Positions 825 to 61,211 of a DNA stretch of 64,000 bases are shown here, piece after piece. The position numbers were made by a program, and so were the translations under genes. The notes below the pieces were generated by a model. It searched no databases, was not told the DNA's origin, and saw only the letters and a program-made list of their open reading frames with translations. This DNA is from [Erwinia] mediterraneensis. Lineage in GTDB: Bacteria; Pseudomonadota; Gammaproteobacteria; Enterobacterales; Enterobacteriaceae. The stretch covers positions 3,544,013 to 3,608,012 of the forward strand of contig NZ_LR026978.1 in NCBI RefSeq assembly GCF_900604315.1, in the 5' to 3' direction. Within the stretch, counting starts at the first letter, position 1; the number at the start of each line of letters is the position of its first letter.

Positions 825-1004
825 CAGTAAAAATCCGCCTTCATAGAAGGCGGCTTTGATTGTACCCCATAGGGGTGTACCAAAAACCTTAAAAAGCAGT
901 TTCTGCCTGTTCCGTAAGATTCAAATCCAGAGACGATACGGCAGAGCCAAAAACTTATTGATGACCACGCCCGCAGGACGTGGTTTTAAGCTGGCAATAA
1001 AAAA
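825..1004. repeat. Dispersed ~180-bp element, copy R1
   Basis: This stretch is nearly identical (about 7 mismatches in 180 positions by eye) to 60989-61190. Read on plus it holds a hairpin CCGCCTT/AAGGCGG (835-853), a CCCC..GGGG hairpin around 865-880, a TCTGCC..GGCAGA long-range pair, and a strong ACCACGCC/GGACGTGGT-type hairpin (about 963-983). Its right end is the A-run that serves as the T-tract of the topA terminator on the minus strand. There is no transposase, no evident terminal inverted repeat and no obvious target duplication. It could be a non-autonomous mobile element, with hairpin ends as in IS200/IS605 derivatives, or a structured RNA. The family is unidentified. Confidence 0.8.
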
Positions 1005-10719: not shown

Positions 10720-10803
10720 ATGACAACGCTTAATTCACTGTTAATGGGTTGGTGGCGCGGCTCTCCCGATATCGGGCGACGCTGTCGTGCACAATTTGCT
10801 TAA
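10720..10803 (+). CDS. trpL: trp operon leader peptide
   Basis: A 27-codon ORF starting MTTLNSLLMGWWRGSP. Tandem TGG TGG codons at 10750-10755 act as the tryptophan sensor: a ribosome stalled there favours antitermination. It is nearly twice the length of the 14-residue E. coli leader, extending through the region that forms the early hairpins. It lies 18 bases before the attenuator stem. Confidence 0.9.
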   Translation: MTTLNSLLMGWWRGSPDIGRRCRAQFA

Positions 10804-10821
10804 ACGCTGTGCAGATACCTG

Positions 10822-10849
10822 AGCCCGCCATTAAAGCGGGCTTTTTTTT
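10822..10849 (+). terminator. trp attenuator
   Basis: Stem AGCCCGC/GCGGGCT with a seven-base loop, followed by about eight T. It lies between trpL and trpE and is the 3:4 terminator of the attenuation system. Confidence 0.92.
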
Positions 10850-44143: not shown

Positions 44144-44228
<85 letters not shown>

Positions 44229-44274: not shown

Positions 44275-44359
<85 letters not shown>

Positions 44360-60988: not shown

Positions 60989-61190
60989 CAGTAAAAATCT
61001 GTCTTCATAGAAGGCGGCTTTGATTGCACCCCATAGAGGGGTACCAAAAACCTTAAAAAGCAGTCTCTGCCTGTTCCGTAAGATTCAAATCCAGAGACGA
61101 TAAGGCAGAGCCAAAAACTTATTAAGGCAGAGCCAAAAACTTATTGATGACCACGCCCGCAGGACGTGGTTTTAAGCTGGCAATAAAAAA
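60989..61190. repeat. Dispersed element, copy R2
   Basis: Second copy of the element at 825-1004 in the same orientation, about 96% identical by eye. It is 22 bases longer because of an internal tandem duplication (61102-61145). The ACCACGCC..GGACGTGGT hairpin and the CTCTGCCT..AGGCAGAG pairing are retained, the latter longer than in R1. Its right end falls in the A-run of a terminator, exactly as in R1. No coding sequence can be supported. Confidence 0.8.
61102..61145. repeat. 22-bp tandem duplication inside R2
   Basis: Two perfect, adjacent 22-base units (61102-61123 and 61124-61145), each starting AAGGCAGAGCC and ending ACTTATT. Copy R1 has one unit. A recent slippage or recombination event would explain it. 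Confidence 0.9.
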
Positions 61191-61211
61191 CCGGTGACAG
61201 CACCGGTTTTT
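61186..61211. terminator. Terminator after the antirepressor gene
   Basis: Eleven-base-pair stem AAAAACCGGTG/CACCGGTTTTT with an ACAG loop. It terminates the minus-strand gene and its A-run is shared with the end of R2. It should also work on plus. Confidence 0.88.

Follow-up and report, generated by a model that had tools for sequence, protein, structure and literature searches.

The closest known kind of element to the one described here is the haloarchaeal PATEs, relatives of IS605-type elements that, in the part of their description drawn on here, are short and non-coding, carry IS200/IS605 ends with near-terminal palindromes, produce no target duplication and arise in some cases by core deletion (PMC3119063). 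For the IS200/IS605 family itself, the sections of two accounts used here describe a TnpA that binds end hairpins, with cleavage sites selected by a tetranucleotide guide 5′ of each hairpin (PMC7290912, PMC8266576). The REP/RAYT system combines a related Y1 HUH enzyme, TnpAREP, with palindromes bearing a guide motif; in the excerpts used, REPs measure 21–65 nt and TnpAREP forms a separate, domesticated family, unlike the element here (PMC6006769, PMC8266576). Group IIC introns (bacterial class C) share with our element their place of insertion, which a passage of PMC8919778 gives as directly after rho-independent terminators, sparing genes. These introns are retroelements with a ribozyme and a reverse transcriptase, machinery unrelated to that of the element. 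An inverted-repeat-type target is likewise used by IS1630 of Mycoplasma fermentans (IS30 family), which differs from the element in its DDE transposase and leaves variable target duplications.

The window (the whole 64,000-nucleotide stretch of DNA that was analysed) holds two copies of a short repeat that share their orientation and are separated by 60 kb, as the sequence-only reading had noticed. Its count of two holds for the window and not for the genome (4.28 Mb, 4 contigs), where BLAST returned 34 match places with E down to 1e-89, so the repeat is not due to chance. Four half-matches among these places are both ends of two 641-bp elements, and the genome thus contains 30 short copies (one truncated) and 2 full-length parents, 32 elements in all. 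Short copies are mostly 167–172 bp long, typically about 169 bp, on the tnpA strand, and three of them are 100% identical, which suggests recent movement. On this strand the element runs from GCCAGC (or ACCAAC) to ATTTTTACT, and the bases after its 3′ end are variable.

Copy 1 is complete, spans 826–995 (170 bp) with its tnpA orientation on the minus strand, and has its 5′ GCCAGC at 995 and its 3′ ATTTTTACT at 826. Its left-end subterminal hairpin CCACGTCCTGCGGGCGTGG (965–983, minus strand), identified by single-stranded DNA folding and by paired changes across lineages, has the putative guide AAAA directly 5′. The right-end hairpin CCGCCTTCTATGAAGGCGG (835–853, minus strand), identified by terminator scan, covariation and folding, is terminator-like, has the putative guide AAAG directly 5′ and is followed by ATTTTTACT; hairpins at both ends had been proposed beforehand. 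The adjoining T-tract TTTTTTATT (996–1004, minus strand) belongs to the host terminator and not to the element, as the empty site in the relative G008 indicates, and the stem of this intrinsic terminator, downstream of topA, lies at 1003–1024 on the minus strand (−14.6 kcal/mol); the terminator scan detected both this stem and that at 835–853. Copy 2, delimited by BLAST matches and end reading, occupies 60990–61181 (minus strand) and is 192 bp long because 22 bp are tandemly duplicated (61102–61145, read from the sequence). Its right-end hairpin lies at 60999–61017 (minus strand; entered by the terminator scan on the plus strand), its target T-tract, again TTTTTTATT, at 61182–61190 (minus strand, sequence reading), and the host terminator stem, ACCGGTGCTGTCACCGGT on the minus strand, at 61190–61207 (sequence; folding −10.8 kcal/mol). 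The consensus terminator scan at copy 2 found only the element's own hairpin and missed this target stem. Several earlier estimates accordingly change: the limits 825–1004 and 60989–61190 become those given above, and the identity of about 96% judged by eye becomes 86% for copy 2 by BLAST, counting the 22-bp duplication as a gap. An element ending in the shared A-run is rejected, since 996–1004 is the T-tract plus ATT of the target terminator; tandem copies have ACT rather than ATT at this position, and empty sites show the target's ATT.

The two parents that share the ends of the short element measure 641 bp each, agree at 629 of 641 bases and carry a tnpA ORF apiece. Their TnpA is intact and is an IS200-type Y1 HUH transposase (PF01797, 3.8e-37; NF033573, NCBIfam transpos_IS200, 1.2e-41), matches solved IS200/IS605-type transposases at 8e-22 to 3e-17, including the ISHp608 transposase, and retains H62 and H64 (HUH) and the catalytic Y127, which do not vary among 14 aligned TnpAs. 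Among the matches listed, the nearest named full-length TnpAs are those of Mixta tenebrionis (92%) and Pectobacterium brasiliense (90%), and Pragia fontium TnpA fragments are 90–95% identical. The parents are members of the IS200 group (tnpA only) of the IS200/IS605 family, with which they have in common TnpA, perfect subterminal hairpins and the absence of terminal inverted repeats and of target duplication, the last being read from the empty sites of two short copies. In a BLAST comparison of the short-copy consensus with the parent, positions 1–56 and 112–169 match at 88%, and no convincing source for the ~55-bp middle was found in the parent; the short element thus consists of a ~56-bp left end and a ~58-bp right end of the parent around this middle. 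Non-coding, with IS200/IS605 ends and dispersed copies, it can be classed as a PATE-type non-autonomous derivative of IS200, and the derivation that the sequence-only reading had proposed, for an element it took to be mobile and non-coding, is borne out by dispersed copies, empty sites and two resident parents with the same ends and an intact TnpA. Unlike the PATEs, the element occurs in Enterobacterales, stems from a tnpA-only IS200 and has near-homogeneous copies, and the copies of its own genome all lie at terminators, with tandem self-insertion.

Subterminal hairpins are present at both ends of the parents, and the short copy folds likewise, its single-strand fold being strong (z −5.8). 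In hand-chosen sequences, 98.3% of cells pair in the left hairpins of 15 elements, with 9 double changes, and 97.3% pair in the right hairpins of 14 elements, with 16 double changes; none of 500 shuffles was as high on either measure, which marks the element ends as constrained DNA hairpins. As predicted from the sequence-only reading, no terminal inverted repeats join the two tips, the inverted matches being either the subterminal hairpins or 10–15 bp long. Furthermore, AAAA at the left end goes with TTAT and AAAG at the right end with TTAC, so that, on sequence evidence, the base that differs between the two putative guides has its counterpart in the cleavage sites.

Relatives without the element show what belongs to the target. 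At the topA site the element is absent from all 15 relatives read, most of which have another tail after the hairpin; G008 reads hairpin-TTTTTTATT|GCCTTATA where our genome reads hairpin-TTTTTTATT|element|GCCTTATA. At a second site the junction in G008 is identical in sequence to our flanks (GGCGTTTTTATT|GTTTTCAACATGG); G075 and G068 also align across it without a gap. Three further sites have T-run plus ATT before the junction in at least one relative, other relatives having ACT, GCT or different tails, and at two sites (L009 and L017) no relative aligned across the junction. Because the relatives' empty sites already carry hairpin, T-run and ATT, the tail is the target's, and at the two sites with a readable junction nothing was duplicated or lost, in agreement with the earlier claim that the target is not duplicated. 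At the terminator of the second site, which in our genome is occupied by the copy L002, the genome G025 carries a 74%-identical relative (L253, G025:C46:21318-21493), which reflects either an old common insertion or a repeat strike on one target.

The proposal that the target is the T-tract after a terminator hairpin was confirmed across the genome. Scored with RNA parameters, the T-run has beside it a hairpin at or below −9 kcal/mol at all 29 independent sites (the weakest about −9.4), and the bases before the element are hairpin, 4 to 7 T and ATT at 28 of the 29 and CATT at one, with six T at 17. The three further copies lie head-to-tail directly behind another copy's right-end hairpin and ATTTTTACT. 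The control set comprised all TTTTATT occurrences in 464 kb of this genome, 142 in number, from which 3 were removed as element junctions to leave 139; coding sites were those within ORFs of at least 100 codons. Such a hairpin was found at 30/139 of all sites (Fisher P = 2e-16 against 29/29), 9/50 non-coding sites (P = 5e-14), 7/23 non-coding sites with at least five T (P = 2e-8) and 5/10 with at least six T (P = 4e-4), the last a small set of which half already has a hairpin. Among 97 terminator-like background sites, 11 have ATT behind the T-run. The T-tract is on the lagging-strand template at 22/29 sites compared to 57/97 background sites, occupied ones included (binomial P = 0.043, Fisher P = 0.07; strand assigned from the GC skew of 20 samples and the window), a count unchanged over nine placements of origin and terminus; this weak bias is suggestive only. 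Insertions at other sites may have been lost by selection.

The terminator habit extends to full-length IS200s in other genomes. In G233, whose TnpA is 39% identical, 12 of 13 copies lie at terminators by eye (11 scored by script), as do 4/5 full-length copies in G041, 3/3 in G192 and all seven single loci fetched from the element's own clade (six by script; L263, whose short upstream sequence kept it outside the 98-locus test below, by eye). A tnpA match occurs in 17 E. coli records, of which seven were read at one place each; five of these loci were at terminators by eye, four reaching the cut-off, and the two negatives are frameshifted. A clear hairpin is likewise absent at L101 (G041), L250 (G233) and L189 (one of two Pragia loci), and L169 and L175 have T-run plus ATT with a weak hairpin. 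Terminator use is absent in G049a (TnpA 72% identical; 0/3), G049b (0/5) and G038 (0/2), which rules it out as a property of all IS200s. Across 98 chosen IS200 loci, several of them copies in one genome, a strong hairpin plus T-run occupied the left boundary at 43, compared to 14/429 control windows further upstream; the scored window may overlap the element where the left end is long, and adding four loci left out (L172, L189 and L199 with none, L186 with −16.1) gives 44/102. The two hairpin scorings took in 55 and 57 of at least 80 named TnpA loci. In one locus (L257, G050:C11:77068-78119) two IS200s stand in tandem, the second, which has one in-frame stop, directly behind the right end of the first.

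A TnpA tree of 71 rows (21 near-duplicate or flawed and 7 short translations dropped, L109 added) places our element in a clade of 16 rows (support 95/73), 15 of them at terminators; the 16th is L101, one copy of a lineage otherwise at terminators. Sister rows to this clade, Paraburkholderia and G049a, are without terminators, and a second terminator cluster appears among Bacillota and Pasteurellaceae-like rows. The terminator label, mostly one locus per row at the −9 kcal/mol cut-off with L139 (−7.2) and L109 labelled by hand, requires 14 changes compared to about 24 when shuffled, and confinement of the habit to one clade is ruled out. Terminators may have been missed in some of the negative rows from AT-rich genomes, and some positive Bacillota rows may be chance, given the 14/429 control, or internal hairpins of long left ends (e.g., L205 and L211). 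The circumstances named beforehand as fatal to the original interpretation do not obtain: the genome has 32 elements instead of two, relatives are present in other genomes, and a hairpin adjoins every one of the 29 independent copies. That interpretation is thus supported with two refinements: the A/T-run is the target's, and the terminator habit is that of IS200 lineages, not of the derivative alone.

Taken together, the short element is most probably an internal-deletion derivative of the resident 641-bp IS200, moved in trans by TnpA and directed to a target of hairpin, T-run and ATT. Movement by the single-strand “peel and paste” of IS200 TnpA is well supported by the anatomy, and common ends and an intact parent suggest that the resident enzyme would mobilize the short copies. 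TnpA would bind both subterminal hairpins of the tnpA strand, and the AAAA (left) and AAAG (right) guides would pick the cleavage sites TTAT(T) and TTAC(T), respectively, as their potential pairing suggests. The excised strand would then be joined just 3′ of the target TTAT(T), with no duplication. For the IS200 lineage concerned, a bare tetranucleotide would not suffice as target; the target would be a rho-independent terminator, a hairpin with a ~9-nt tail made up of T-run and ATT. The right end of the element is itself a hairpin plus 9 nt (ATTTTTACT), and the commonest target a hairpin plus 9 nt (TTTTTTATT); we hypothesize that a single-stranded terminator mimics the right end and is accepted by TnpA for that reason. 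Insertion would keep the host terminator, add a terminator-like hairpin and probably be nearly harmless, and each insertion would create a new target and hence head-to-tail tandems. The tandems fit the idea of mimicry, as they show the right end itself to be a target, but a sister lineage without terminator use has a similar right-end tail (8 nt), so that mimicry is not singled out. We therefore put forward tentatively, at somewhat less than even chances, the wider proposal that across a large share of the IS200 group, in Enterobacterales, Pasteurellaceae-like genomes and Bacillota alike, TnpA selects targets by DNA shape and takes a terminator hairpin with a 9-nt T-rich tail for its own right end.

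A simpler account, in which TnpA reads T-run plus ATT by guide pairing alone and terminators are enriched through non-genic T-runs and purging of insertions elsewhere, could draw on the guide-like AAAA of the left end, on L101, L169 and L175, where T-run plus ATT lacks a strong hairpin, and on the 5/10 non-coding ATT sites with at least six T that already have one. The 29/29 sites nonetheless exceed the non-coding controls (7/23 with at least five T, 5/10 with at least six), and the T-run is accompanied by a hairpin at each of the 32 elements of this genome; we regard guide pairing alone as somewhat unlikely. It is also possible that a pause of RNA polymerase at the terminator leaves the non-template T-tract as the most accessible single-stranded DNA; the tnpA strand is the terminator's non-template (T) strand at the sites read, but the element's own right end, which may be untranscribed, is also a target in three tandems, and we consider such transcription-coupled exposure unlikely.

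Explanations without this kind of transposition fare far worse. That the repeat is a structured regulatory RNA or 3′-UTR element under selection, the alternative kept by the sequence-only reading, would suit the strong single-strand fold (z −5.8), yet it leaves unexplained the empty sites, the near-identical copies at unrelated genes and the full-length parents with the same ends, and Rfam at gathering score gave three matches in the window, none at the element; we judge it highly improbable. Membership in ERIC or YPAL/RU-2, the small repeats known from enterobacteria, has a next to negligible chance of being correct: YPAL/RU-2 is of similar size (168 bp) with a target near dyad symmetry in the portion of PMC2229807 used, but YPAL reportedly makes duplications of 3–26 bp, none of which occurs at our two empty sites, the RU-2 sequence printed in an excerpt of PMC2759123 is unlike the element when compared by eye alone, and the terminal inverted repeats and TA duplication given for ERIC in the extracts used are both lacking here. 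Elsewhere in the window, Rfam places a Trp operon leader (RF00513), an ordinary attenuator, at 10744–10849, and two tRNA genes of equal score lie close together at 44144–44225 and 44275–44356.

The new point is the target: hairpin, T-run and ATT here compared to the tetra- and pentanucleotides reported for IS200/IS605 elements in the section of PMC7290912 used, together with the reading of a terminator as a right end, which we infer from the likeness of the two. We found no prior report of terminators as IS200 targets in the open-access papers searched. If whole IS200 lineages do land behind intrinsic terminators, this would account for their persistence without harm to the host and for the inclusion of IS200, in a large survey, in the list of families enriched between convergent genes (PMC9208149, passages used); it would also mean that a single-strand integrase reads a structured DNA target. 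Under the wider proposal above, intrinsic terminators would offer the simplest known transposons and their miniature derivatives a safe harbour throughout the genome, and IS200s would converge with group IIC introns. The miniature family would furthermore supply ready-made terminator-like hairpins to the 3′ ends of genes. In Salmonella, two sRNAs just upstream of IS200 copies were explained, in the excerpt of PMC2515195 used, as read-through into the IS terminator; terminators at the IS200 insertion sites may offer another explanation.

Sequences related to the short element over its entire length, its middle as well as its ends, are present in G068, G025, G390 and G236, on one Salmonella plasmid and in E. 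coli, where 27 of 5,426 genomes match, 22 at 80% coverage or more; no match was found among 50,697 phage records. Nine of the 27 E. coli records were read: in three of them the relative lies at a porin locus, and in six it lies within a P2-like prophage. By eye, the seven sites outside our genome divide into those with a clear hairpin (G068, G390 and the E. coli P2 prophage), a weak one (G025 and the Salmonella plasmid) and none (the E. coli porin locus and G236). Matches to the ends alone adjoin tnpA matches in G313, G301, G192, G311, G235 and G173. In the same-genus draft G024, six contigs (L036, L038–L040, L044 and L045) carry a right-end match at a distance of 69 bases from the contig start; repeats of the element may break this assembly, making draft copy numbers too low. 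At L271 and L294–L298, which are in E. coli P2-like prophages, the relatives have a virion morphogenesis gene on one side and HNH/AAA cargo genes on the other, and P2-like prophages are a possible vehicle for the spread of the short element.
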